Source: Candidatus Woesearchaeota archaeon | GTDB lineage: Archaea; Nanobdellota; Nanobdellia; Woesearchaeales; WAPJ01 | Reading direction: 5' to 3' | Length of the DNA stretch: 15,787 nt | Assembly (NCBI GenBank): GCA_015519985.1 | Contig: WIAN01000048.1 | Location: 1-15,787, forward strand | Shown here: positions 869 through 12,807 of the stretch, piece after piece | How positions within the stretch are numbered: the stretch's first letter is position 1 | Layout: each line of letters opens with the position of its first letter | Program-made: the position numbers and the translations under genes | The notes under the pieces: generated by a model | Told to the model about the DNA's origin: nothing | What the model saw: only the letters and a program-made list of their open reading frames with translations | The model's database searches: none

Positions 869-3019
869 ATGATGTATTTTAATTATAATAAAACAAAAAA
901 AAAGGCACAAGTTACTTTGTTTGTAATAATAGCAATGATAATATTGTTAGGAATAATTTTAAGTTATTCTTTTATAAAAAGTTTAAACACTAATTTTAAT
1001 TCTGAAGAATTTAATTTTATACAAAATTCTTTTCAACAATGTTATGAAAATAATTTAAAAAGTAATATTAAAACTTTAGCAAGAAACGGAGGTTATTTGT
1101 ATTTAGATAAAGATGAGTTTGAAAAATATTTAGAAAATAATGATGTTAAAGGTTATTTTTTTAAAAACAATTTTTATCCTTACTATAATTATTTAGACAA
1201 TAATGTTTTAAAAACTTCTCTTCCCACTATTAGTTTTATTGAGGAAGAATTGTCTTTTTTTACTAATAAAAAAACGGAAAATTGTATAATTAATAATATT
1301 GAAAAATATAATTCTAACACTACAAACAAAATTTTTTATAACAATATAAAAGTTGATAGTAAAGTTGTTATTTCTGAAGATAAAATAAAATATTCTTCTA
1401 CATTAAAAGGTACTTTTAAAAAAAATTCTGCTACTAAAAGTTCTTTTAAAATTTCTGATTCTTTCAATTCTGATTTTAAAAAAATGTATGATATTGTTAA
1501 AGGTTTTTCTTCTTATGAATATTTTACTGGATTTTTAGAATATTATATTTTAGACATTATTTCTTTAAATGATGGTGTTGGAAAAAAATATCCTCCTTTT
1601 TATGCTTTAGATTTTTCTTATAATATTAACTTTTGGAATTCTAATACTGTAAGTAGTGAATTAAAAAATGATATTAAAAAACAATTTTCTATTTTTAGAT
1701 TTTCTTCTAAAGATGATTTAGAAAATTATAATACTCTTCCTTTAATGTTGAAAAGAGCTTTTATTACTTTAAAAAATAAAGATGATTATTTTGGAGATTA
1801 TGCTTTTTTACATTTTGTTGATGTTCCTGATGTTGATGTTAAATTTAACAAACAACTTTTTGTTTCTGGAGAAAAAATTAATATGCCTGTTGACATTTTA
1901 TCTTCTTTAATTCCTATAAGAGTTTATTATACTAAATATGATATTAAAGCTCCTATATTATTCTCTGTAAGAAGTAAAAATTCTGATTTATTGTTTAATT
2001 TTGCTTTTGAAACTAATATAAAACATAATTCTCCTGTTAAAGAAAAAGTTTCTCCTTATATTGAAGATTTTAATGTTAATGATGATGCTGTTTTTTTAGA
2101 AAAAGTTAGAGAAAGTGATTTTTATTGTAGAAAACCTTTAGGTAATAAAGTTTCTTTTGAATTTTATGATGAAGACAATAATAAACTTGACAATGTTAAT
2201 ATATTGTTTTTTTGCGGAGATGAATCTTGTGCTTATTCTTATAATAGCAATAACAATAAGGTTACTCTTCCTTTATGTTATAATGCTAAAATTTCTTTTA
2301 AACATAATGATTTAGATTTTGATAATATTAATGATTATAAAAGTTTAGATAATTCTTTTGAAGACAGTTTTTCATTAGTAGGATATAAAAAACATAAATT
2401 GTCTTTGAAAGTTAATATTTATGATTTGTTAAAAGTTACTGAAAGAGAAGCAGAAGAAAAAAGCAGTAAATTGTTTAAAGACAAAAATAGACTTATAAGT
2501 TTAAAACCTGATCATTATGAACTTTCTTCTAATAAGAGGTTTTTTGAAAATGGAGAAAATCTAATTTTAACTTTTAAAAAATTAAACTCTGACTTTTTTT
2601 ATTCTATAAAAATTAACAATTCTAATTATAATGATTATAAAGAAATTTATTTGTATCCTGGAGATTATTCTTTAAATATTCTTCTTTTAAAAAAGTTAGA
2701 TGAACCTTTTTATATTCCTGAAAGAGAAGATTGTGTTTTTGGCTATCCTAACTTTGTTTGTATTGGAAGACAAAAGTATGATAAAGTAGAATTTAATAAT
2801 ACTTTTTTAGAATTTTCTTTCAATTATAATGAATCTTTACCTTTCAATATTCCTTTTGATAAAGTTAAAAATGATAATGCTGTTTTAGAATTTAATATTC
2901 CTGCTTTTGTTTTATTTAAAGTGCCTGAGAACGAAAGATTTATAGATGATTTGTCTTTTATGGATTATGGTAGTGAAATATTTTTAACTAACAATAATTT
3001 AGGTGTATTTTTAAGATGA
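869..3019 (+). CDS. Large surface protein with class III (pilin-like) N-terminus; paralogue of the 7031-8809 product
   Basis: A 716-residue protein of unknown function. A short basic leader ends in KKKA, followed by QVTLFVIIAMIILLG. This resembles class III signal peptides of archaellins and pilins, with possible cleavage A13/Q14, though the usual Gly at -1 and Glu at +5 are absent; it may simply be a membrane anchor. Beyond the helix (about 15-37) the protein should lie outside the cell. An N-terminal region has C58, GGY at 74-76 and C139. A beta-type region has DFYC, CGDESC (C449, C454) and LPLC (C470). The same elements, with nearly the same spacing, occur in the 7031-8809 product, so the two are paralogues. 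The rest is Asn/Lys/Phe-rich with no recognised enzyme motif. ATG 869 is followed at once by ATG 872; either could be used. The stop overlaps the next start (ATGA, 3016-3019), indicating co-translation. I recall similar QVT-leader/GGY proteins in other DPANN genomes, unverified. Confidence 0.85.
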   Translation: MMYFNYNKTKKKAQVTLFVIIAMIILLGIILSYSFIKSLNTNFNSEEFNFIQNSFQQCYENNLKSNIKTLARNGGYLYLDKDEFEKYLENNDVKGYFFKNNFYPYYNYLDNNVLKTSLPTISFIEEELSFFTNKKTENCIINNIEKYNSNTTNKIFYNNIKVDSKVVISEDKIKYSSTLKGTFKKNSATKSSFKISDSFNSDFKKMYDIVKGFSSYEYFTGFLEYYILDIISLNDGVGKKYPPFYALDFSYNINFWNSNTVSSELKNDIKKQFSIFRFSSKDDLENYNTLPLMLKRAFITLKNKDDYFGDYAFLHFVDVPDVDVKFNKQLFVSGEKINMPVDILSSLIPIRVYYTKYDIKAPILFSVRSKNSDLLFNFAFETNIKHNSPVKEKVSPYIEDFNVNDDAVFLEKVRESDFYCRKPLGNKVSFEFYDEDNNKLDNVNILFFCGDESCAYSYNSNNNKVTLPLCYNAKISFKHNDLDFDNINDYKSLDNSFEDSFSLVGYKKHKLSLKVNIYDLLKVTEREAEEKSSKLFKDKNRLISLKPDHYELSSNKRFFENGENLILTFKKLNSDFFYSIKINNSNYNDYKEIYLYPGDYSLNILLLKKLDEPFYIPEREDCVFGYPNFVCIGRQKYDKVEFNNTFLEFSFNYNESLPFNIPFDKVKNDNAVLEFNIPAFVLFKVPENERFIDDLSFMDYGSEIFLTNNNLGVFLR

Positions 3020-5952
3020 AAAAATTTGAATATAACAGATGTGATAAAACTAAGAATAATAATTTTAAAACTTATTATTTATCTTTGTTAGTTTTATTCT
3101 TCTTTTTATTTTTTTCTTTTAATGTTTTTTCTTTGTCTGTTGAAAATTTTAATTTTGAAAATTCAAATATTATTAATAACAAAATTTTTATTCCTAAAAG
3201 TGGTGTTTTAAAAGTTACTTTTGACAATAATGTTAATGTTGATGATGTTTATTTAACTTTAAATTCTAAAACTTTAAACTTTTATAATTGTGAAGATAAT
3301 GTTTGTTCTGTAAATTTAAACTTTTATTCTGGAGGAAAATATGAATTGAAAGTTTATGATAATACTGGTTTTTTAGATAAAACTATTTTTGTTGTTGATG
3401 TTTCTCCTGTTGTTGTTAATAATGTTAATTTTTTTTCTGAAGATAACAGTGTTTTTTTAAATGTTAATTTTAAAGATTATGCTGATTATGACAATAAAAT
3501 TTTAGGTTGTGGTTTGAAAAGTTTAAAAATTTTAGATTCTGATAAAAATGTTTTGTTTGAAAATAATTATAATAATGTTCAAAATTCTTTAAAAGTTAAT
3601 GTTGATTCTTTTAAAGAAAAATTAAATTCTAATCTTATTTTTGTTTTTGAAGATTGTTTTGGTAATAAGAAAGTTTATAATTATAATAATATTTTAGATT
3701 TGGAAAGTCCTAAAATTTTGTCTGTTAATGGACAGAATGATAATTTAAAAGTTTCTTATAAAAATAATGGTTTTGAAAAATTGTTGTATTTTGATGTTAA
3801 AGTTGAAGAAAATAATAATGTTGATTTGGAAAAAAGCAGTGTTAATTTTAAATCTTCTTCTATTAATATTGTCAAAAAGTTTTCTTCTTGTAATGTTTTT
3901 TATGAAAATAAAAAAAAGTTTTTTTCTTGCAGTGTTGTTATTCCTTTAACTTATGTTGAAAAAGATTTTTCTTTGAAAGTTTTTGTTAGTGATGGTAATA
4001 GTATTTCTTCTAAAACTTTTAATGGAGAAATTTTAGTTGATGATGTTAATCCTAAATTTTTGTCTTTTAAATCTAATTCTTATGGTTATAATAATGAAAT
4101 GTTTTTGAAAGATGTTTTTTATGTTGATTTTGAAGAAAACTTTTTTATTGATAAAAATTCTGTTGTTGTAAAATTGAATAATTTTAATTCTTTAGAATTA
4201 TCTCCTGACTTTTGTTATAAAAAAAAAGATAACATTGTTAGGTGTGTTTTTAACATTTCTAATATTTTAGATGATATTAAGAATTCTGTTGATTCTTTAG
4301 AAGCTACTTTGATTTCTGCTAAAGATGAGAATGATAATGAGGTTATTTTTTCCTTTACTGATGACAGATCTGCAATTTTTTATTTTGATGATAAAAAACC
4401 TTCTGTTAAAACTGTGCTTTTTAAAATTAATAGTGAATATTATTCTGATCTTGTTTTATCTGAAAATTCCAATTTTATTTTGAGAGTTATTGTTTTTAAA
4501 GAAGGAAGTGTTTTGTCTAATGTTTATTATTTAAAATACTCTTCTGAATCTGATTATGAAAAAGTTCCTTTGAAAAAAATTTCTTGTTATGAACAAGAAA
4601 AATATTATGTTTGTGACTATGAAGGTTTTGAGTTGAATAAAAATACAGTTCTTAACTTTTTGATTGAAGATTCTTCTGGAAATAGTGTTGTTGTTAAAAA
4701 AAATGTTTTGTTTTCTGATAATAATGTTAATTTAATTTCTGACGCTTGGTTTTTAAGTGATATTATTGTTTCTCCTAAATATTTTATTCAAAGTTATGAT
4801 TCTGATTTTTCTGTTAATATTCCTCTTTTAAGATCTGAAATTAATCCTAATGGAAAATTGTCTTCTTCTATAGTTGAGTGTTCTTCTGAAAATGCTGATT
4901 TTACTTTTGTAAATTCTTATGTTGATGATGTTAATGATGAAGTTGTTGTTTCTGGTTCTTTAATTTCTAATTCTGATTCTAAGATTAAAGTTGATTGTGA
5001 ATTAAAAATTAAAACTTATGATGAAACTGATAATTCTTTTTCTAATTTTGAATCTCATAATTTTTCTTTCTATTTATTCCCTTTTGGTTATGAAGATAAT
5101 AATATTTTTAACTCTGATGGTTCTTTTAAAAGAGATCTTTTAACTTCTTCTACTGCTATTTCTATTTTGTCTTCTGCTGATAAATTGTTATCTACTTCTG
5201 AAGATTTATGTAATGTTTTGACAGCTATCAAAACAGGTAGTGTAACTTCTGATGCTATTGCTATTACTGTAAAATATGGTATTGTTACTTCTGCTGCTTA
5301 TCCTTCTGTAAAAAGTATTGCTGATAGAATTTTCAATCTTAATGAAAATTTTGAAAAGTATGGAGAAAAATTTTGTGAATTTGTTTATTGTAATAATGAA
5401 TGGACTGATAAAGTTGAAAATTTTTATAATAATTTAGAATTGCCTTTACAATCTAAACTTGAAGGTTATGGTTTGACTTTTAAAAAGAAAGATGTTAGAG
5501 ATTCTTTAATTTTATCTTCCATTTCTTTATGTGTTCCTGGTATTGTTAAAAATATTAAAAGAATACAAAATATTGATTGTGCTTCTAAACTTTGTTATTT
5601 AGAAGCTTCTAAAGGTAATGTTCCTTTCTCTTATTGTGATGTTTCTTCAAGTATTGCTTATTGTCAATATACAGGTAATGAAATATTACAAATTGTTCCT
5701 TTCGGTGATTTTGTTGATTCTTTTGGTGTTATAGGAGATATTATTGAACATCCTTTTACTGCTTTGTCAGGTTGGATTGTTGATACTGCTTCAAAGTACA
5801 TTGAAGAGGTAAGAGTTGTTATTGAAGCTAAAAAGTTAGTAGAGATTTTTTCATCTTTTGGTTCAGAAGATAATAGTGTTGAAAATATTTTTGATGATAA
5901 TAGTTATTGTACTACTTTAAATGAAGAATTAGAACGTTTAGAAAATAATTAA
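3016..5952 (+). CDS. Giant secreted protein with Ig-like repeats and Cys-containing helical C-terminal region
   Basis: A 978-residue protein. A Sec-type signal peptide is clear: a basic, polar N-terminus (1-20) then a hydrophobic run LVLFFFLFFSFNVF to about residue 39. Residues about 40-690 are beta-rich and appear to be serial Ig/cadherin-like domains. They are joined by Asp/Pro linkers: DLESPKIL near 228, DDVNPKF near 340, DDKKPSV near 458 and SDNNVNL near 566. From about 705 the composition changes to mostly helical, with Ala/Ser/Ile segments and clustered cysteines; residues about 854-895 hold C-x4-C, then GNVPFSYC, AYC and TGNEI. About 20 cysteines follow the signal peptide, suggesting disulfides outside the cell. 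No C-terminal anchor is evident. The start overlaps the previous stop by 4 bases, so it is translationally coupled to the class III-leader protein and is a likely partner of it. Exact function, binding target and domain family are not recognised. Confidence 0.85.
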   Translation: MKKFEYNRCDKTKNNNFKTYYLSLLVLFFFLFFSFNVFSLSVENFNFENSNIINNKIFIPKSGVLKVTFDNNVNVDDVYLTLNSKTLNFYNCEDNVCSVNLNFYSGGKYELKVYDNTGFLDKTIFVVDVSPVVVNNVNFFSEDNSVFLNVNFKDYADYDNKILGCGLKSLKILDSDKNVLFENNYNNVQNSLKVNVDSFKEKLNSNLIFVFEDCFGNKKVYNYNNILDLESPKILSVNGQNDNLKVSYKNNGFEKLLYFDVKVEENNNVDLEKSSVNFKSSSINIVKKFSSCNVFYENKKKFFSCSVVIPLTYVEKDFSLKVFVSDGNSISSKTFNGEILVDDVNPKFLSFKSNSYGYNNEMFLKDVFYVDFEENFFIDKNSVVVKLNNFNSLELSPDFCYKKKDNIVRCVFNISNILDDIKNSVDSLEATLISAKDENDNEVIFSFTDDRSAIFYFDDKKPSVKTVLFKINSEYYSDLVLSENSNFILRVIVFKEGSVLSNVYYLKYSSESDYEKVPLKKISCYEQEKYYVCDYEGFELNKNTVLNFLIEDSSGNSVVVKKNVLFSDNNVNLISDAWFLSDIIVSPKYFIQSYDSDFSVNIPLLRSEINPNGKLSSSIVECSSENADFTFVNSYVDDVNDEVVVSGSLISNSDSKIKVDCELKIKTYDETDNSFSNFESHNFSFYLFPFGYEDNNIFNSDGSFKRDLLTSSTAISILSSADKLLSTSEDLCNVLTAIKTGSVTSDAIAITVKYGIVTSAAYPSVKSIADRIFNLNENFEKYGEKFCEFVYCNNEWTDKVENFYNNLELPLQSKLEGYGLTFKKKDVRDSLILSSISLCVPGIVKNIKRIQNIDCASKLCYLEASKGNVPFSYCDVSSSIAYCQYTGNEILQIVPFGDFVDSFGVIGDIIEHPFTALSGWIVDTASKYIEEVRVVIEAKKLVEIFSSFGSEDNSVENIFDDNSYCTTLNEELERLENN

Positions 5953-5958
5953 AATAAT

Positions 5959-5976
5959 TAAAACAGGCAGGTTTTA
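5959..5976 (+). other. Perfect 6-bp inverted repeat around a GC-richer hexamer
   Basis: TAAAAC and GTTTTA flank AGGCAG just after the stop at 5952. The hairpin would be weak (one G-C pair), so it is not a convincing terminator. The loop is one of the few G-rich spots in this gap; a protein-binding site is possible. Confidence 0.25.
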
Positions 5977-6006
5977 GATAAAATAGATAAAGTTTAAATA
6001 GATAAA
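5975..6006 (+). repeat. Three direct copies of TAGATAAA in the 5' region of the 6029 gene
   Basis: Exact copies lie at 5975-5982, 5984-5991 and 5999-6006, spaced 9 and 15 bases apart; a one-mismatch copy (TTGATAAA) lies at 6020-6027. They surround the TATA-like TTTAAATA at 5993-6000. They could be operator sites, or chance repeats in AT-rich sequence. Confidence 0.35.
5993..6000 (+). promoter_or_regulatory. TATA-like box ahead of the 6029 gene
   Basis: TTTAAATA centred about 26 bases ahead of position 6022, so transcription could start some 6 bases before the ATG at 6029. Suggests the second half of the envelope cluster can be transcribed independently. Confidence 0.35.
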
Positions 6007-6028
6007 ATTTATTTTGTAGTTGATAAAA

Positions 6029-6988
6029 ATGAATAAAATAAAGATGAAAATTAATAAAACAAAAAAAGAAAAAAAAGTTGTTAGATTGTTAGTGTTTTTT
6101 TTAGTACTGTTTTTTGTTTTATCTTTATTTTCTAATGTTGTTTTTTCAGATGATTTATCAGATGGAATGGGTAATGCTGTTAGTCCTGGTTCTTCTTCTA
6201 TTGGTTCTAATGATGCAGGTAATACTGGTACTGATAATCCTAGTAGTGGTTCTTCTGATACTGGTTCAAATAGTAATTCTGATTCATCTAATTCTAATAA
6301 TAGACGTTTATCTATTTATGGTTCTGATTTTAAATTTCGCCAAGGTAATTCTGATAGGCCTTTATCTATTTCAGGTTCTGATTTTAAATTTCGTCCTAAA
6401 ACTAGTAAGTTTAAAGATTATGATTTTTCTTTAAGCAGGATTAATGAATATTCTGATTATATTTATAGTTTGACTTGTAATTGTAAATTTGATGATTCTT
6501 GTTCTGACTTTTTGAATGTTTATTGTGCTAATACTAAAGATTTTCTTCCAGATTATTTAAAATGGACTGTTGATTTTTTTAAAAATCCTGTGAATACTGT
6601 TTGTAATTCTTTCCTTCCTAATATTAATTATAAAGGTTTAGGTGTTTCTTTAAATCAAGAATCTCTTTCAGATCAAACAATGCCTTCTAATAATGTTAAT
6701 GCTTATATTCAAGCTGCTAGATCTTTACAAGAAGATACTTATTTTTATTATTTTAAATTTTATTTTTCTCCTAAAAAAGAATATTCTTCTAATAATATTG
6801 TTTTTAAATTTTTGATTTCTGGAGCTTATGAAAATGCTGATTTTGATGTTGAAGAATCAAATTCTGGTTTTACTTTGATTAAAACTTTGAATACTAATAA
6901 GAATATTGAAAAAGTTTGTATGTATTTTGATCCTATTCCTGAAGGTTTTTCCTCTAACTATTTTTGTGCTGATGTAGTTGATATTTAA
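6029..6988 (+). CDS. Secreted protein with Ser/Gly/Asn linker and Cys-containing beta domain, unknown function
   Basis: The start is set at ATG 6029 (319 residues) rather than the in-frame TTG at 6020, because TTGAT ahead of the ATG resembles the archaeal GGTGAT ribosome site. A very basic N-terminus (many Lys, about residues 1-18) precedes a hydrophobic segment LLVFFLVLFFVLSLF and VVFS, a typical signal peptide ending near residue 40. Residues about 42-91 form a Ser/Gly/Asn/Asp-rich flexible linker. An 18-residue tandem duplication follows, each copy carrying LSI-x-GSDFKFR. The remainder has a Cys cluster (TCNCKFDDSC, NVYC, NTVC) and then a probable beta-sandwich, YFYYFKFYFSP through KVCMYFD and NYFCADVV to the end. 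No transmembrane helix beyond the signal is seen. Its position between two large secreted proteins suggests it is a component or partner of the same surface assembly. No family recognised. Confidence 0.75.
   Translation: MNKIKMKINKTKKEKKVVRLLVFFLVLFFVLSLFSNVVFSDDLSDGMGNAVSPGSSSIGSNDAGNTGTDNPSSGSSDTGSNSNSDSSNSNNRRLSIYGSDFKFRQGNSDRPLSISGSDFKFRPKTSKFKDYDFSLSRINEYSDYIYSLTCNCKFDDSCSDFLNVYCANTKDFLPDYLKWTVDFFKNPVNTVCNSFLPNINYKGLGVSLNQESLSDQTMPSNNVNAYIQAARSLQEDTYFYYFKFYFSPKKEYSSNNIVFKFLISGAYENADFDVEESNSGFTLIKTLNTNKNIEKVCMYFDPIPEGFSSNYFCADVVDI
6308..6394 (+). repeat. Tandem duplication, 54-base period, inside the 6029 gene
   Basis: Two copies (6308-6340 and 6362-6394) of a unit encoding LSI-(Y/S)-GSDFKFR, one codon differing in residue and two synonymously or nearly so. 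The second copy begins 54 bases (18 residues) after the first. The DNA match is strong, which suggests either recent duplication or conserved constraint. Confidence 0.8.
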
Positions 6989-6994
6989 AATGAA

Positions 6995-7008
6995 AAGATT
7001 TTTAAATT
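6995..7008 (+). promoter_or_regulatory. BRE/TATA-like promoter of the 7031 gene
   Basis: AAAGA followed by TTTTTAAATT, centred about 27 bases ahead of the ATG at 7031, with no Shine-Dalgarno in between: a leaderless transcript is likely. A 7-T run at 7023-7029 between box and start could also act as a weak terminator for the preceding gene. Confidence 0.4.
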
Positions 7009-7030
7009 AAAAACTGTTAAAATTTTTTTA

Positions 7031-8809
7031 ATGTATAAGAAACTTTTTAAGAATAGAACTGCACAAGTAACTTTTTTTATAATTATAGCTGTTTTGTCTT
7101 TATTGTCTATTGTTGCTGTTGTATATATTTCAAATTTAGATTTTTCTTCTAATAATGTTAATGTTTCTTCTAATAATGTTGTTTTGCAACAATGTATTTC
7201 TGAACAGTTTGAAAATTCTTTAAGAGTAGCTTCTTTAAAAGGAGGTTATGTTGATTTTAATAATGTTCCTTATTTTGTTCCTTTTAACAGTTATAAAATG
7301 CCTTTATGGAAAAAAGATAATACTTTATTTATTCCTGATGCTGAGAGTATTGAACAACAATTAAGTTCTGATTTGAAAAATAGGATTATAGAGTATTGTG
7401 TTTCTGATGATGTTAAGAGTGTTTTAAAAAATAAGTTGAATGTTAAAGTATTATTGTCTGAAGATGAGAATAGAGCTGTAGTTAAATTTAATACTTATAA
7501 ACAAGAAAAAAACAGTGTTAAAAATTTTGGTGTTTATGAAGTTAAAAACAGTGTTCCTTTTTTAAAAATGTTGAATACTGCTAAAAATTTTTATTCTGAT
7601 TTAGAAAGTAAAGATGTTTTGAAAGATTTAACAACTACTATTATTGCTATGAACAAAAATATTCCTACTGAAGGTTTGAGTTTTGATTGTGAAAAAAAAG
7701 TTTGGGATGTTGAAACTGTTAAAAAAGCTTTTTTTAAATCTTTAAAGGATATTTCTCCTAAAGTTTCTTTTAATGGAGTTCCTAAATATGATAATGAAAT
7801 TGTTAAAAAACATTTTACTTATAATTTAGATTCTGTTAAGAATAGTAATGTTAAAGTTAAAATGATTTTTAAAGAAAATTATAATAATTCTTTTTTTAAA
7901 GTTGATAATGTTGAAGGTAATTTAATGACTTCTTTTGTAACTAAGAATGCTGTTGGCTGTCAAAATTCTTATAGCTTTTATTATGATTATTCTGTTCCTG
8001 TTATTTTTTCTTTATATGATGAAAATGAAGATTATTATTTTAGATTTGCTTTGCCTATAGAGGTTTATAGGAATAATGTTGATGTTGATCCTGAAAGTAA
8101 AATTGAAAGTTCTAATGAAGTTGTAGTTGAAAATACTGTTGATGAAAATAATAATGAAGTTGAAGTTAAAAGAACTGTTTTGAACGATTTTTGTAGTAAG
8201 ACTACTTATGAAAAAATTAATCTTTCTATAAAAGATAATTTTGATAATCCTGTCAGTAAAGTAGTTTCTTATATACAATGTGGTTCTCAACAATGTTATT
8301 TAGATGTTGTTGATAATTATGTTTATTCTTCTTTACCTTCTAATTGTGCTTTTGGTAAAATTTATGTTTCTAAAAAAGGTTATTCTCTTGAAACTTTAAA
8401 TTATAAATTTAACAAATTTTCAGATTTAAAAAATAAAGATGTTGTTTTATACAAATTGTACAATTTTATTTTAAAAGAAGAATGTAATGGTGTTTGTGAT
8501 TTTGAAAATTTTAATTTTGTTGTTTTTAACAATAAAGATAATGTTGAAACTCCTGTATTTTTATCTAAAAATGATGATTTTGCATCTGTGAAACCTAAAG
8601 ATGGAAAAATTGTTTTTGCTATTGTAAAAACAACTCCTTCAGGATTTAATTTTGTTGAAAAAAAATCTTTTAGTTTAGAAGATTTTGACAAAGGAACTGA
8701 TTATTATATTAAAGTTGTTGGAAAGCCAAGAGAGGAAGGTTTTTATACTTTTGAAGACATCTCATTTGAGCCTGTTAATAGTGAAAATAATGGTGAAAAT
8801 ATTAATTAA
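7031..8809 (+). CDS. Class III (pilin-like) N-terminus surface protein; paralogue of the 869-3019 product
   Basis: A 592-residue protein. A basic leader ends in KNRTA, followed by QVTFFIIIAVLSLLSIVAVVYI, so a class III-type cleavage A11/Q12 or an uncleaved anchor is possible. The exterior part repeats the layout of the 869-3019 product. C55 is followed 16 residues later by GGY (71-73), exactly the same distance as in the paralogue; C123 comes next. Further on are NDFC, CGSQQC (C417, C422) and LPSNC (C439), then a GY-x(n)-VVLYKL segment typical of small beta-sandwich (carboxypeptidase-regulatory/PEGA-like) domains. Near residues 38-51 there is a 21-base-period repeat encoding SSNNV twice. An acidic, Asn-rich segment near residues 355-385 (ESSNEVVVENTVDENNNEVEV) looks like a linker. 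No catalytic motif is seen. It is the fourth gene of the envelope block; the conserved Cys pairs suggest disulfides outside the cell. Confidence 0.85.
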   Translation: MYKKLFKNRTAQVTFFIIIAVLSLLSIVAVVYISNLDFSSNNVNVSSNNVVLQQCISEQFENSLRVASLKGGYVDFNNVPYFVPFNSYKMPLWKKDNTLFIPDAESIEQQLSSDLKNRIIEYCVSDDVKSVLKNKLNVKVLLSEDENRAVVKFNTYKQEKNSVKNFGVYEVKNSVPFLKMLNTAKNFYSDLESKDVLKDLTTTIIAMNKNIPTEGLSFDCEKKVWDVETVKKAFFKSLKDISPKVSFNGVPKYDNEIVKKHFTYNLDSVKNSNVKVKMIFKENYNNSFFKVDNVEGNLMTSFVTKNAVGCQNSYSFYYDYSVPVIFSLYDENEDYYFRFALPIEVYRNNVDVDPESKIESSNEVVVENTVDENNNEVEVKRTVLNDFCSKTTYEKINLSIKDNFDNPVSKVVSYIQCGSQQCYLDVVDNYVYSSLPSNCAFGKIYVSKKGYSLETLNYKFNKFSDLKNKDVVLYKLYNFILKEECNGVCDFENFNFVVFNNKDNVETPVFLSKNDDFASVKPKDGKIVFAIVKTTPSGFNFVEKKSFSLEDFDKGTDYYIKVVGKPREEGFYTFEDISFEPVNSENNGENIN

Positions 8810-8846
8810 GAAAATAAATTAAGAAACTAATTGATTATAAATATTT

Positions 8847-8858
8847 GTGATTAAAATG
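8847..8858 (+). promoter_or_regulatory. GTGAT ribosome site deciding the start at 8856
   Basis: GTGATTAAAATG: GTGAT matches the archaeal AGGTGAT Shine-Dalgarno core and lies 4 bases ahead of the ATG. The GTG itself is in frame and could be taken for a start, giving M-I-K-M. Equivalent TTGAT-N4-ATG arrangements precede the genes starting at 750 and 6029. Confidence 0.45.
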
Positions 8859-11207
8859 GTTGAAAAGTTTAATAAGTTTAACAAATTTAATAAATTCGGT
8901 AAAAGAATTTTGTTTTTAATACTATTATTGTTTTATTTTACTGTTGTTTTTTCTAATGCTGTTTTTTCCGAAGAAAATAGTTGTAAAGATAATATTTTAG
9001 ACTATTTTTATGTTGAAAATACAGGTTCTGATAATGAAGTTACTTTAACTGCAAATTCTGATTATTCTTCTATTGAAGTTAGTTTTGCCTTAAAATTAAT
9101 ACCTAAAGAGAATGCTGTTAAAAGAATAAAAGACGTCAAATTTTTATCTGAAGGTTTTTTCAATAATGATTTTATTGTAGATTCTTTAACTTCTGAAAAA
9201 AACAATGACGAATATATTTTGCATTTAAAATTGTCTCCTAAAAGTTTTGATTTTCAAAATTTAAAAGAGGATGTTGATAAAAATGTTGGTTTGAGTGTTT
9301 TAATAACTTTTGTTGATATTAATGATAATGAAAAAACTGTTGTTTTTTGTCTTCCTTCTTTTTCAGTAAAAATAATTTTAGATGAAAATTTTGTTCCTAA
9401 AGATTTAGTTGATAGTATAAATTCTGCTAAAAAAACTTATGAAAATTTTAAAAAATTAGATTCTGGTTTTAAAATTTTAGAAACTACTTATTCTTTAATG
9501 TGTAATAATAAACAAAAAAGTTATGAAAAAAAAGTTTCAGATTGGAATACTAATTGTTCAATTTTAAAATCTGATATTAAAAAATCTTTATTAGGAGAAG
9601 AAGTTAATGTTGATGAAGTTTGTAATGTTAAAAAAGATTCTTTTGAAGGTTCTAACGATGAAGAAAAAACAAATAATTGTAAAGAAAGATTTTCTTTTTG
9701 TAAAGAAAATTATAATGATGTTTTAAAATCTGAAAAAGAAATGTTAGATGTTTGTATGAGAGTAAGTTGTAATCCTGTTTATACTAAAGAAGAACATTCT
9801 AAAAGATATTTTGATTTTTTAGGTATTAATTATTGTGAAAATAATATTGATAGTGAAAAATGTAATGATCAATATAAAAGAATTGAGAATACTAAATGTG
9901 AATTTTTAGATGTTAATACTTTAGATGAAAATAAAAACTTGTTTAATTTTAAAAATTCTTATGAACAACAAGTTTGCGGAGCTCCTGGAGAAATTAAAAC
10001 TTTAATAGATCCTTCTTCAAGTATTGTTGGTTCTGCTGCTTGTATGTGTATACCTTCTTTATCTTCTTATATATCTAACTATAGAGATTTGTATGAAAAT
10101 TATGTTTCTTGCTTAGAAGGTTCTTCAGCAAAAAAAGCTTCTGAATGTTTAAATGTTAATTATATTTTTTTATGTGAAAACGCATTAGACTTTTTTTCTT
10201 GCGGATATTTAGATTTAGCTTCTTATAGTGGAAGAATAAGTTCTTTTTTAGATGAAAATAATAAAGCTTATGTAATTACAAATAACATTCCTACTAGAAT
10301 AAATAATAAAATAAAAAATGATTATTCTGCTTTAGTATCTTATGATTTTAACTTTAATACTGGAAGTTTAAAAAATGCTGTTTGCAGAACTGCTTTCGGA
10401 GATGAAAATATTGATTGGGGAAAAATATTGTTAGATTCTTTTTCATACAATTTTGAAGCTTCATTAACTTCAGGAGTTAATTTTTGTGATGTAAATAAAA
10501 AATTAGATAGTAGTTGTTATTGTGGAACTCAAAAAGATTTTAATGAAGAAATTTCAAATTCTGAAGATAATACTGTAAAACCAAATTGTGGTGAAAATTA
10601 TATTTGTACTTTTGAAGATAATGATAAAAAGTTTTATTGTAAAGAAGAAAATGAAGTTAATATTCCTAATAACAAAGAAAATGAAAAAGTAGAAGAAAAA
10701 GTTGTTTTAAGAGACTCTTCAAGTTATGATTCTTCAAATACTGATATGAATAACAAAGAAAATGAAAATAGTGAAGAAAGAGTTGTTATAAGTAAATCTG
10801 ATTCTTTATCTGAAGTAAAGATAGATGATAACAAACTAGCTGGAGAATTAACAATAACTTCAGATAACTCAAATTTCTTTAAAAAAGTGCCATATTGTAA
10901 AAAAGAGTCTGATGGAATAACCGTTCTTTCCAGTGTTAAAAAAATTGTTATGTTTAAAAATGATATTATATCTTTAGAATATAATACTTATTATGATAAA
11001 AGAAGAACTAAAGAAAACTTGTTTCCTTCTAAATATTTGATTGATTATTGTGATAAAATTGAGTATGATTGTGAGGGAAATTCTTTTATATTCAAAGGTA
11101 CTGGTTGTTATTATGAAGATGTCAATTCAAAAGTTTATTATGACCATAAGAATATTGTTGAAACTGTTCCTATAACTTTTACATATAAAAAAACAGATTT
11201 TAGATAA
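8856..11207 (+). CDS. Large cysteine-rich secreted protein, unknown function
   Basis: A 783-residue protein from ATG 8856. The signal peptide has an unusual n-region made of KFN repeats, then a hydrophobic core (ILFLILLLFYFTVVF) and a likely end near residue 40. The mature protein holds about 30 cysteines. Residues about 42-175 look beta-rich. From about 185 to 540 the protein is helical and Cys-rich; one striking module (about 396-449) runs ACMCIPSLSSYI, VSC, SEC, FLC, FSC. A small knot-like Cys segment follows (SSCYCG, NCGENYIC, FYC; about 545-595). Then comes an acidic linker with an imperfect 27-residue duplication, and a C-terminal region with four more Cys. No transmembrane helix after the signal is evident. 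I recall similar CIPSLSSYI-type Cys modules in giant secreted proteins of other DPANN archaea, unverified. It closes the envelope block and is followed by a T13 terminator, suggesting it ends the transcription unit. Confidence 0.82.
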   Translation: MVEKFNKFNKFNKFGKRILFLILLLFYFTVVFSNAVFSEENSCKDNILDYFYVENTGSDNEVTLTANSDYSSIEVSFALKLIPKENAVKRIKDVKFLSEGFFNNDFIVDSLTSEKNNDEYILHLKLSPKSFDFQNLKEDVDKNVGLSVLITFVDINDNEKTVVFCLPSFSVKIILDENFVPKDLVDSINSAKKTYENFKKLDSGFKILETTYSLMCNNKQKSYEKKVSDWNTNCSILKSDIKKSLLGEEVNVDEVCNVKKDSFEGSNDEEKTNNCKERFSFCKENYNDVLKSEKEMLDVCMRVSCNPVYTKEEHSKRYFDFLGINYCENNIDSEKCNDQYKRIENTKCEFLDVNTLDENKNLFNFKNSYEQQVCGAPGEIKTLIDPSSSIVGSAACMCIPSLSSYISNYRDLYENYVSCLEGSSAKKASECLNVNYIFLCENALDFFSCGYLDLASYSGRISSFLDENNKAYVITNNIPTRINNKIKNDYSALVSYDFNFNTGSLKNAVCRTAFGDENIDWGKILLDSFSYNFEASLTSGVNFCDVNKKLDSSCYCGTQKDFNEEISNSEDNTVKPNCGENYICTFEDNDKKFYCKEENEVNIPNNKENEKVEEKVVLRDSSSYDSSNTDMNNKENENSEERVVISKSDSLSEVKIDDNKLAGELTITSDNSNFFKKVPYCKKESDGITVLSSVKKIVMFKNDIISLEYNTYYDKRRTKENLFPSKYLIDYCDKIEYDCEGNSFIFKGTGCYYEDVNSKVYYDHKNIVETVPITFTYKKTDFR
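8865..8897 (+). repeat. KFN codon repeat (9-base period) in the signal-peptide n-region
   Basis: Three KFN units plus a KF, each unit about 9 bases with synonymous variation (AAG/AAA, TTT/TTC, AAT/AAC). A repeat inside a signal-peptide n-region is unusual; it may vary in copy number. Confidence 0.7.
10668..10829 (+). repeat. Imperfect tandem duplication, 81-base period, in the acidic linker
   Basis: Copy 1 begins at 10668 and copy 2 at 10749. Their first 20 bases are identical and encode NNKENE; similarity continues through EE(K/R)VV and then fades. The unit is 27 residues, in frame, in a low-complexity charged linker. Confidence 0.65.
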
Positions 11208-11309: not shown

Positions 11310-11945
11310 GTGGGGGACAAAAAAAATAATAACAATAATAATACTAATAATAATGTAGAGAATAATGTTGATAATATTAATAATAATACTAATGCTGATA
11401 ATGATTTTTCTCCTAATGTTGTTACTGGAGAAACTTGTCCTATTTGTGGTAAAAAAACTTTAACTTTAACTGAAGCTGAAAGAGACATTCCTTTTTTTGG
11501 AAAAGTTTATTTGTTTAGTATGAATTGTTCTAATCCTGAATGTAAATATTCTGTTAGTGATGTTGAAAGTGAAGAAGTTAAAGAACCTTCTGAATATTCT
11601 TTAGACGTAAGTAAAGAAGATCATTTGAATGCTAGAGTTATAAAAAGCAGTAATGCTACTGTTAAAGTCGGTAGAATTATGACTATAACTCCTGGAACTG
11701 CAAGTCAAGGTTATATTAGTAATATTGAAGGAGTTTTAAAAAGAACTCAACACGCTTTAGAAATGGCTTATGATATGGAAGATGATAATTCTAATAAAAA
11801 AAAGTTAAAAAATAAAATTAAAAAGTTAAGAAAAGTATTATATGGAAACGAACCTATTACTATTACTATTTCAGATCCTACTGGAAATTCTGCTATTATT
11901 CATGAAGATGTTGTTAAAAAAACTTTAAAGAAATCTAAAAAATAA
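11310..11945 (+). CDS. ZPR1-family zinc-finger protein
   Basis: A 211-residue protein starting at GTG. After a low-complexity Asn-rich tail (residues 6-32) comes a zinc-finger motif: CPICG (C43, C46), EAERDIPFFGKVYLFSMNC and C73/C78, then KYSVSDVES. This matches the archaeal single-module ZPR1 family, with the ending PGxxSxGYISNIEGVLKR typical of its alpha/beta part. In eukaryotes ZPR1 acts as a chaperone for translation elongation factor eEF1A; the archaeal role is inferred by similarity. The second Cys pair is C-x4-C, whereas I expect C-x2-C in most ZPR1 proteins. The C-terminal part (DPTGNSAIIHED and a Lys-rich end) is complete, so the protein looks full length for an archaeal member plus the added N-terminal tail. 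Its stop lies 16 bases from the convergent NFACT-R stop. The family is confident. Confidence 0.92.
   Translation: MGDKKNNNNNNTNNNVENNVDNINNNTNADNDFSPNVVTGETCPICGKKTLTLTEAERDIPFFGKVYLFSMNCSNPECKYSVSDVESEEVKEPSEYSLDVSKEDHLNARVIKSSNATVKVGRIMTITPGTASQGYISNIEGVLKRTQHALEMAYDMEDDNSNKKKLKNKIKKLRKVLYGNEPITITISDPTGNSAIIHEDVVKKTLKKSKK
11325..11402 (+). repeat. Asn-codon (AAT/AAC) low-complexity run
   Basis: Clustered AAT and AAC codons encode the Asn-rich N-terminal tail of the ZPR1-like protein. Mixed AAT/AAC use argues against a pure slippage repeat, but length variation is plausible. Confidence 0.7.
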
Positions 11946-11956
11946 ATGTACTATAA

Positions 11957-11963
11957 TTTTTTT
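11957..11963 (+). terminator. T7 run after the ZPR1-like gene
   Basis: Seven T, 12 bases past the stop at 11945, overlapping the end of the convergent NFACT-R gene. A weak archaeal U-tract terminator. Confidence 0.35.
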
Positions 11964-12807
11964 ACCTCTTTAAATATTTTATATCTACATTTCCAGGCAA
12001 ACTTTTTACAATTTCATCTAATGTTATGTCTTTTATTCCTTTTTTTTCTAAATATTTTTTTATTTCTTTAGCAGCATCACTAACCTTTATTTTCCCTGGT
12101 GTTAATTCTATAAAACTATCTTCTTTAACAGGGCTTATTATAATATAATTGTTTTCTTCTATTTTTATTGTTTTAACATACAATTTTAATATTCCTGTAA
12201 AAATGTTTTTTTTACCATATATCATAAAACTTCCTTTTTGCAAATATTCTCCTGCTTTTGCTTTTTTGCTTACTTGTTCTGGTAATACAAAAAATGCATC
12301 TATTACTGAAACTCCATACTTCCATGCTCTACTAAAAGAAACGGTAGCATCTACTAATTCTTGTATTTCATCTTTATATTCTTCTATATTATTTATTATT
12401 TTTTCTCTTTCATCTTTTTCTAATTTTAATATAAAAAAAGGACTTCCATTTACATCAGCATGAAACACTAAATCATTTTTTTCTAATCTTTTTTTTATTA
12501 ATTCTTCATTTGTATTTGCATCTCTTCCTCCTATTGCTAAATGTCCTTTAGAAGTATAAAACCACCTGTATTTCATATACCAAAACGTTTTTTTTATTAT
12601 TTTTGTAGTTTTTTTTTCTTTACTTTTTTCTTTTTGTTCTTTTATTTCTATTTCTTCTTTTTGTTTTTCTTCTAATTCAAACTTTTTTATTGCTTCGTAT
12701 GCTCCTTTTGCTTTTTTTTTGAACTTTTTAGAATTTTCAAAATAGTAAGATGCATTTTCTTCTAATGTTTTGTTCAAATCTAATTCTATTTCAATTCTTT
12801 CTTCCAT
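11962..12807 (-). CDS. NFACT-R (DUF814) domain protein lacking the N-terminal NFACT-N half
   Basis: A 281-residue protein. Residues 1-35 (IELDLNKTLEENASYYFENSKK) match the segment that precedes NFACT-R in full-length Rqc2/RqcH/NEMF relatives. Next is a charged coiled-coil stretch (about 36-72) and the NFACT-R domain (about 73-190). That domain carries WFYTSKGHLAIGGRD, NEELIKKRL, NDLVFHADVNGSPFFI and the closing WKYGVSVIDAFFVLPEQVSKKAKAGEY and KGSFMIYGKK. The C-terminal part (IELTPGKIKVSDAAKEI, LPGNVDI) is also conserved. Known relatives bind obstructed 60S/50S subunits and tRNA in ribosome-associated quality control. Archaeal NFACT proteins usually run to about 600-700 residues, so this one begins just before the linker and lacks the NFACT-N and HhH regions. 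They may be encoded elsewhere. The TATA box at 12835-12844 sits close to this ATG, supporting the short start rather than a truncated gene. Family call is confident; function is inferred. Confidence 0.92.
   Translation of the reverse strand: MEERIEIELDLNKTLEENASYYFENSKKFKKKAKGAYEAIKKFELEEKQKEEIEIKEQKEKSKEKKTTKIIKKTFWYMKYRWFYTSKGHLAIGGRDANTNEELIKKRLEKNDLVFHADVNGSPFFILKLEKDEREKIINNIEEYKDEIQELVDATVSFSRAWKYGVSVIDAFFVLPEQVSKKAKAGEYLQKGSFMIYGKKNIFTGILKLYVKTIKIEENNYIIISPVKEDSFIELTPGKIKVSDAAKEIKKYLEKKGIKDITLDEIVKSLPGNVDIKYLKR

Follow-up and report, generated by a model that had tools for sequence, protein, structure and literature searches.

Here, we describe five consecutive genes, P1 to P5, in a window of 15,787 nucleotides (the whole stretch of DNA that was analysed) from a Candidatus Woesearchaeota archaeon. 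As judged from sequence comparison, these genes appear to form a nearly class-wide, previously undescribed set that encodes predicted exported proteins with large modular members. Our preferred, still tentative, reading is that the set makes up a disulfide-braced cell-contact apparatus with exchangeable ends.

Five adjacent genes for predicted exported, cysteine-containing proteins

The window is contig C24 of an 826-kb draft genome (170 contigs, 91.7% complete) of a tiny, probably partner-dependent archaeon. P1 to P5 are five consecutive open reading frames on the plus strand. P1 (869..3019, 716 residues) is a leader-anchored paralogue of P4, P2 (3016..5952, 978 residues) is predicted to be exported and has a conserved Cys-rich C-terminal region, and P3 (6020..6988, 322 residues, TTG start) is a predicted exported low-complexity protein. 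P4 (7031..8809, 592 residues), the core family member, is also leader-anchored, and P5 (8847..11207, 786 residues, GTG start) is a predicted exported Cys-rich protein that was placed in a BLAST cluster. As the initial annotation described, P1 and P2 overlap by 4 bases and the other genes are closely spaced, with gaps of 67, 42 and 37 bases for P2-P3, P3-P4 and P4-P5, respectively.

The initial annotation also took all five proteins to be exported, two of them by QVT-type leaders, and noted numerous cysteines; these points were borne out. Exactly one hydrophobic segment above threshold was predicted near the N-terminus of each protein: residues 13-31 in both P1 (905..961, plus strand) and P4 (7067..7123, plus strand), where it lies within the QVT leader (KAQVTLF in P1 and TAQVTFF in P4), residues 17-35 in P2 (the weakest), 23-41 in P3 and 21-39 in P5. 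Export and a single transmembrane helix are predicted for all five proteins. The cysteines number 8, 22, 7, 10 and 30 in P1 to P5, as compared with 4 in the neighbouring ZPR1 homologue and 0, 0 and 4 in three minus-strand neighbours. When relatives were aligned, the columns in which 80% or more of the rows have Cys numbered 4 for P1 (16 rows), 21 for P2 (21 rows), 3 for P3 (15 rows), 8 for P4 (70 rows) and 19 for P5 (36 rows).

Profiles built without the window and P0002 retrieved P1 (9.5e-45), P2 (6e-60), P4 (1.7e-41) and P5 (1.8e-8) of the window, and gave no match to shuffled window proteins. Window P3 was not retrieved by a profile built without the window row; an earlier P3 profile had contained that row, and window P3 was lost once the row was removed. 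The putative identity of P3 is based on its position and on three Cys columns, and in many relatives the same slot holds larger exported proteins.

No named system had been recognised in the initial annotation, and family scans left this unchanged: nothing above a cut-off was found for P1 to P5 of the window (the best Pfam-A match of P1, at 0.061, is far below the family cut-off), and none of the 70 aligned P4 rows matched Pfam-A at E ≤ 0.01. Profile searches of the PDB gave a best value of 0.017 for P4 (Calpain-7, not significant) and of 0.73 for the C-terminal part of P2, and no match for the P5 core. Rfam and tRNA scans of the window were empty.

P1 and P4 belong to one widespread family

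That P1 and P4 are paralogues, as initially annotated, is supported by BLASTP (3e-11) and by profile-profile comparison (probability 100, 7e-97 over 621 columns), in which the homology spans the whole length of the proteins. In all 70 aligned P4 rows, the sole predicted transmembrane helix is N-terminal. In a gene tree with an arbitrary root, P1, order-level P4 and other-order P4 each fall on one side of a branch, with support of 94, 67 and 62, respectively. The window rows are on very long branches in this tree, and window P1 falls in the P1 group with a support of 86.

Searches of a protein database with window P4 and with A1 matched only the query itself and P0002, which we take to be because of AT-rich query words. 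A more central alignment used as the query gave 62 relatives, and the names listed were all 'hypothetical protein'; a first genome-contig search with P0002 as query gave no match. The P1/P4 family was found in 92 of 193 genomes of the order by single-sequence search, in 293 of 378 genomes of the class by profile search and, when 148 high-quality genomes were drawn from the phylum, in 132; all 148 are members of one class, so that this count speaks for that class. In the same draw, the P5-core profile matched 86 genomes, 27 of them from other orders, and the C-terminal part of P2 was found in 90, of which 83 are from the window's order. The family to which the window's archaeon belongs has one further genome in the comparison set.

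The leaders of P1 and P4 resemble those of archaeal class III signal proteins and type IV pilins, with a [KR][AG]Q leader before an N-terminal hydrophobic helix. A prepilin-like leader, [KR].?[AG]Q, was found in 67 of 70 P4 rows and 11 of 16 P1 rows, and the A24 peptidase was matched in 143 of the 148 genomes. Both observations count in favour of a type IV pilus in which P1 and P4 would serve as minor pilins and P5 as a tip adhesin resembling PilY1, a reading that we regard as very unlikely. A glutamate at position +5 after the cut is typical of pilins. Among the rows that matched the leader motif, this residue was seen in neither protein: all 63 such P4 rows have Phe at +5, and of the 13 such P1 rows 10 have Phe and 3 have Tyr, where the motif itself demanded a hydrophobic or aromatic residue and left 7 P4 and 3 P1 rows unmatched. 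Unlike type IV pilins, P4 relatives are mostly about 590-890 residues long and have no pilin family match, and their presence does not follow the pilus platform.

Membership in a type IV pilus was rejected on this last point of co-occurrence. T2SSF was matched in 119 of the 148 genomes and unmatched in 29; the 20 of these 29 that were listed all carry the P1/P4 family, and of the 16 genomes in which the family was absent, 15 have T2SSF (hand tally). T2SSE was matched in 147 of 148 genomes, with a best match no better than 1e-25 in 39, and of the 40 genomes in which T2SSE is unmatched or matched no better than 1e-25, 39 carry the family (hand tally). Since T2SSF-free genomes keep the P1/P4 family, the family does not depend on pili. 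A24 was found in 19 of the 20 listed genomes without T2SSF, and its persistence in the absence of the platform would fit processing of the P1/P4 leaders. The window's genome (G000), at 91.7% completeness, has T2SSE and T2SSF matches and no A24 match, and 'class III' processing of the P1/P4 leaders is unproven.

Gene order recurs in other genomes

The initial annotation suggested that the five genes form a joint system, and we found that the exported, Cys-rich gene set and its order recur in other DPANN genomes. The genes turned out to be neither scattered nor assigned to separate known roles, with the P1-P2 and P4-P5 units lying apart in some genomes. P5 comes directly after P4 in 59 of 60 order-level regions, and in the remaining one the contig ends. 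Named loci were collected from 554 stretches that matched a sequence pattern, 337 of which encode a relative; the best 80 of these 337 gave 78 loci, many of them from the same genomes as the 60 order-level regions, and the named relatives are Woesearchaeota, Nanoarchaeota, Nanoarchaeia or archaeal records. A family gene stands directly before P5 in 73 of the 78 loci (an 85-residue piece in L166), a short called ORF lies between the two in 2, and 3 loci end at the family gene, such that 75 of 78 keep the pairing. In other orders, a gene of at least 1205 residues is next on the same strand after P4 in all 20 regions when ORFs under 100 residues are ignored. In 80 of the 86 genomes with a P5-core match, a member of the P1/P4 family was matched no more than 8 kb upstream of the best such match. 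An exact 4-base overlap was seen in 24 of 60 P4-P5 pairs (window included) and in 7 of 16 P1-P2 pairs, the 16 genes (window's included) being classed as P1 by the P2 that follows. Different neighbours were seen for five additional members of the family, and one more lies at the end of its contig.

P1-P2-P3-(6-TM gene)-P4-P5 is an order-level arrangement in Woesearchaeota. Read by eye, it is uninterrupted in eleven loci (L100, L101, L102, L103, L106, L115, L123, L136, L141, L146 and L152). In L107 and L111, no 6-TM gene was recognised, as in the window, in which none lies between P3 and P4. The P1-P2 pairing was found in at least 32 of 62 genomes of the 148-genome draw. Among the 62 genomes in which a P2 match was taken, 17 have P2 and P5 on the same contig no more than 20 kb from each other, and 5 have them on the same contig at a greater distance (21 to 318 kb); the other 40 are genomes with the two on different contigs, together with undetermined cases. 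The P1-P2 and P4-P5 units are separable.

Other genes border the set in single loci. A methionyl-tRNA-synthetase-like gene, as read from sequence, is directly or nearly directly upstream of P1 in L049, L101 and L146. In L038, a PAC2-family gene (10008-10817, minus strand) is directly upstream of P4, in the slot of the 6-TM gene elsewhere; genes of L036 and L046 cluster with it, the family scan covering the L038 gene alone.

P5 has a conserved core and varied ends

P2 and P5 have in common a Cys motif of about 65 residues (hhalign probability 85.7, E 5e-6), located by profile comparison at 5488..5715 in P2 and 9993..10196 in P5, both on the plus strand. This putative link is short and its probability moderate. 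Big_3_3 Ig-like modules were matched in 9 of 21 aligned P2 rows, and window P2 is not among them.

At 786 residues, window P5 is a short relative of proteins of up to 3149 residues, which have a Cys-rich core, Ig/FN3 modules in some and variable C-termini. Window P5 itself has neither a hydrolase nor an Ig/FN3 family match. Twelve relatives were scanned whole: six have N-terminal FN3-, Ig- or Glucodextran_B-type matches, two have C-terminal hydrolase matches, four have neither and none has both.

The C-termini were compared in 136 unique complete proteins encoded downstream of P1/P4-family genes. Three of these (L078_4, L124_11 and L126_5) are not P5 and were left out of a 133-protein scan; the 133 P5 proteins (window included) are frames of at least 700 residues that adjoin a family member or lie one gene past it, which places short P5 proteins such as those of L037 (459 residues) and L055 (548 residues) outside the set. 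The last 330 residues of the 136 proteins matched SLT (9), M23 (3), GDSL, cupredoxin, Amidase_2 and VanY (2 each), and NlpC/P60, DUF2272, DPBB_1 and SH3_3 (1 each), and the preceding 360 residues of the 133 proteins matched Amidase_2 (2), SLT (2) and 3D (1). The C-termini of the 136 proteins fell into clusters of 51, 20, 12, 4, 3, 3, 2, 2, 2 and 2 members and 35 singletons. They seem to form many unrelated clusters, and not all are unrelated, as the largest joins 51 of 136.

The P5 hydrolases sit mainly in other orders. In the last 690 residues of the 44 other-order P5 proteins we found SLT (11), M23 (3), GDSL (2), and Amidase_2, NlpC/P60, VanY, DPBB_1, 3D and DUF2272 (1 each), counts in which one protein may carry several domains. 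Peptidoglycan hydrolase ends are present in at least 11 of the 44, and at least 22 have no hydrolase-type match in these residues. By subtraction, only a few of the 88 order-level P5 proteins have a hydrolase match. The C-terminal domain of L182 aligns with Slt70 (1qsa) across a Q-E-S stretch, which we take to hold the catalytic Glu of Slt70, and that of L178 aligns with M23 endopeptidases; the C-terminus of L181 had no match in the PDB search. The P5 ends of L203 and L233 look GDSL/SGNH-like by eye, and an amidase-like stretch seems to precede that of L233.

SLT domains were matched in 82 of the 148 genomes of the draw, for the most part in frames that are not P5, and in 0 of 4 control archaea. 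With hand-chosen anchors, and with second fragments of one domain dropped by hand, 16 of the 133 SLT places listed are within 10 kb of a P1, P2, P4 or P5 match, as compared with a crude expectation of about 5 that assumes two 20-kb windows per 1.1-Mb genome. In some genomes, the SLT protein is encoded near P5 rather than on P5. In the genome of the window's archaeon, a single SLT frame was found, and it is on a different contig.

A proposed cell-contact apparatus and its alternatives

In our proposal, a class-wide set made up of two related units, P1-P2(-P3) and P4-P5, is present in the window in compact form. An N-terminal helix would hold P1 and P4 in the membrane, with a disulfide-braced ectodomain outside, and the Sec-exported, Cys-rich P2 and P5 would each bind their own upstream partner. 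P5 is modular, in that N-terminal Ig/FN3 adhesin-like modules are added in some relatives and a peptidoglycan hydrolase at an exchangeable C-terminus in others, mostly from other orders. The apparatus could function in adhesion and, in some lineages, in local cutting of the bacterial wall, and in the window's lineage the core would be kept with neither addition. The sequences show the gene order, the homologies, the conserved cysteines and the C-terminal domains of relatives; we infer display at the surface, disulfides, binding of P4 to P5 and of P1 to P2, the contact function and its target. The initial annotation had raised a surface assembly for host attachment; the idea gains indirect support from the Ig/FN3 and hydrolase domains on P5 of relatives, with host attachment itself still an inference.

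The set may serve contact with other cells because some relatives carry wall-cutting enzymes on its largest protein. Our confidence is slightly lowered because none of the twelve proteins scanned whole has both adhesin-type and hydrolase parts, and the fibre-plus-tip picture is assembled from different lineages. It also counts against the proposal that most P5 proteins have no hydrolase match and that the majority of SLT domains are encoded away from the set. A bolder version, which we consider doubtful, is that P4-P5, duplicated as P1-P2, is the core of an undescribed contact organelle of the class, in which a leader-anchored, disulfide-locked base carries a giant exported protein with interchangeable ends. 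If this were true, some of those ends would open bacterial walls, and certain of these archaea would then be partners or predators of bacteria.

The near-universality of the family in the class also fits a general envelope architecture, i.e. an S-layer-like scaffold or wall-anchored matrix with no special contact role, whose hydrolase ends are lineage-specific additions. The many conserved cysteines, the family's presence in 132 of 148 genomes and the lack of a recognised enzyme in most P5 proteins would agree with it, and Ig-like modules are common in surface scaffolds. However, exchangeable peptidoglycan-active C-termini would be odd for a lattice protein, and an S-layer has no need of paired genes with a single-TM partner; we think this explanation possible, on balance rather unlikely. 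Less likely again is that P5 mainly displays wall-breaking enzymes for nutrients or killing, as peptidoglycan scavenging or antibacterial attack with no stable attachment. The SLT, M23, NlpC/P60, amidase and VanY matches on P5 and the contrast in SLT between this group and the control archaea speak for it, as do the predatory Woesearchaeota proposed in the parts covered of PMC9723730, but the P4-P5 pair is kept even though no enzyme domain is seen in 22 or more of the 44 P5 proteins from other orders and in nearly all of those at the order level, window P5 among them. We give slightly less credence still to the view that P1, P4 and the 6-TM protein serve to export or fold the giant P2 and P5. 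It would account for the recurring P4-P5 and P1-P2 pairings and for the 6-TM gene that often adjoins them; against it, the family scans matched no transporter or ATPase, each P4 row has one transmembrane helix and a large exported domain, and the window is without a 6-TM gene between P3 and P4.

Relation to known systems

The closest account is that of fam00969, described in the parts covered of PMC8204110 (2021) as extracellular murein-transglycosylase proteins of up to 3000 residues from the same lineages. Compared by description, some P5 relatives fit it in lineage, size and murein transglycosylase domain, but that account, in the parts covered, is of one protein family; it mentions neither the partner P4 nor a P1-P2 unit, and neither the arrangement of the genes nor the further C-terminal domains. 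Window P5, with 786 residues and no family match, does not fit this profile, and SLT is found in 11 of the 44 other-order P5 relatives. Large lytic transglycosylases are part of the proposal of predatory Woesearchaeota in the covered parts of PMC9723730, and the same kind of enzyme is mentioned in those of PMC11537232 and PMC10936187. The P4-P5 gene set is not described in the parts covered of PMC9258230 and PMC11329633, nor in a literature search by title and abstract start that took in few subscription papers.

P5 can also be compared with two designs of surface and effector proteins. The N-terminal part of the P5 profile matches chains of the kind found in bacterial Ig/FN3 repeat adhesins of the Bap/Lap type, namely 7dm0 (2e-8) and 6xi3 (3e-4); unlike these adhesins, P5 has a Cys-rich core without a PDB match and a P4 partner, and window P5 is without the modules. 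Polymorphic toxins and phage-tail lysins have a conserved part together with varied, partly murein-cutting C-terminal domains. P5 is like them in joining a conserved part to varied C-termini, and unlike them in that no immunity, tail or secretion gene was recognised in the window.

Our analysis bears on the ways in which uncultured Woesearchaeota and related archaea make contact with other cells or live on them, and ties some of the reported wall-cutting domains of these archaea to a fixed genetic unit. P4 and P5 could serve as markers, and imaging, binding assays and structural studies could be directed at them. Should the hydrolase ends prove active on murein, this would speak for bacteria as the partners or prey of some of these archaea.

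Genes downstream of P5

On the minus strand of the window, a gene for 281 residues (11962-12807) matches only the C-terminal part of RqcH (380-640 of 645), the archaeal ribosome-rescue factor, below the model cut-off; it may be a split or shortened RqcH, its N-terminal part being absent here. Between it and P5, a ZPR1 zinc-finger homologue (11310..11945, plus strand) was identified by family match. Nothing about this gene suggests a surface role, and it is probably outside the apparatus. It is a recurrent neighbour downstream of P5: in the window, and in ten loci of relatives (L055, L081, L099-L103, L106, L141 and L146), it is the first or second called ORF to follow P5.
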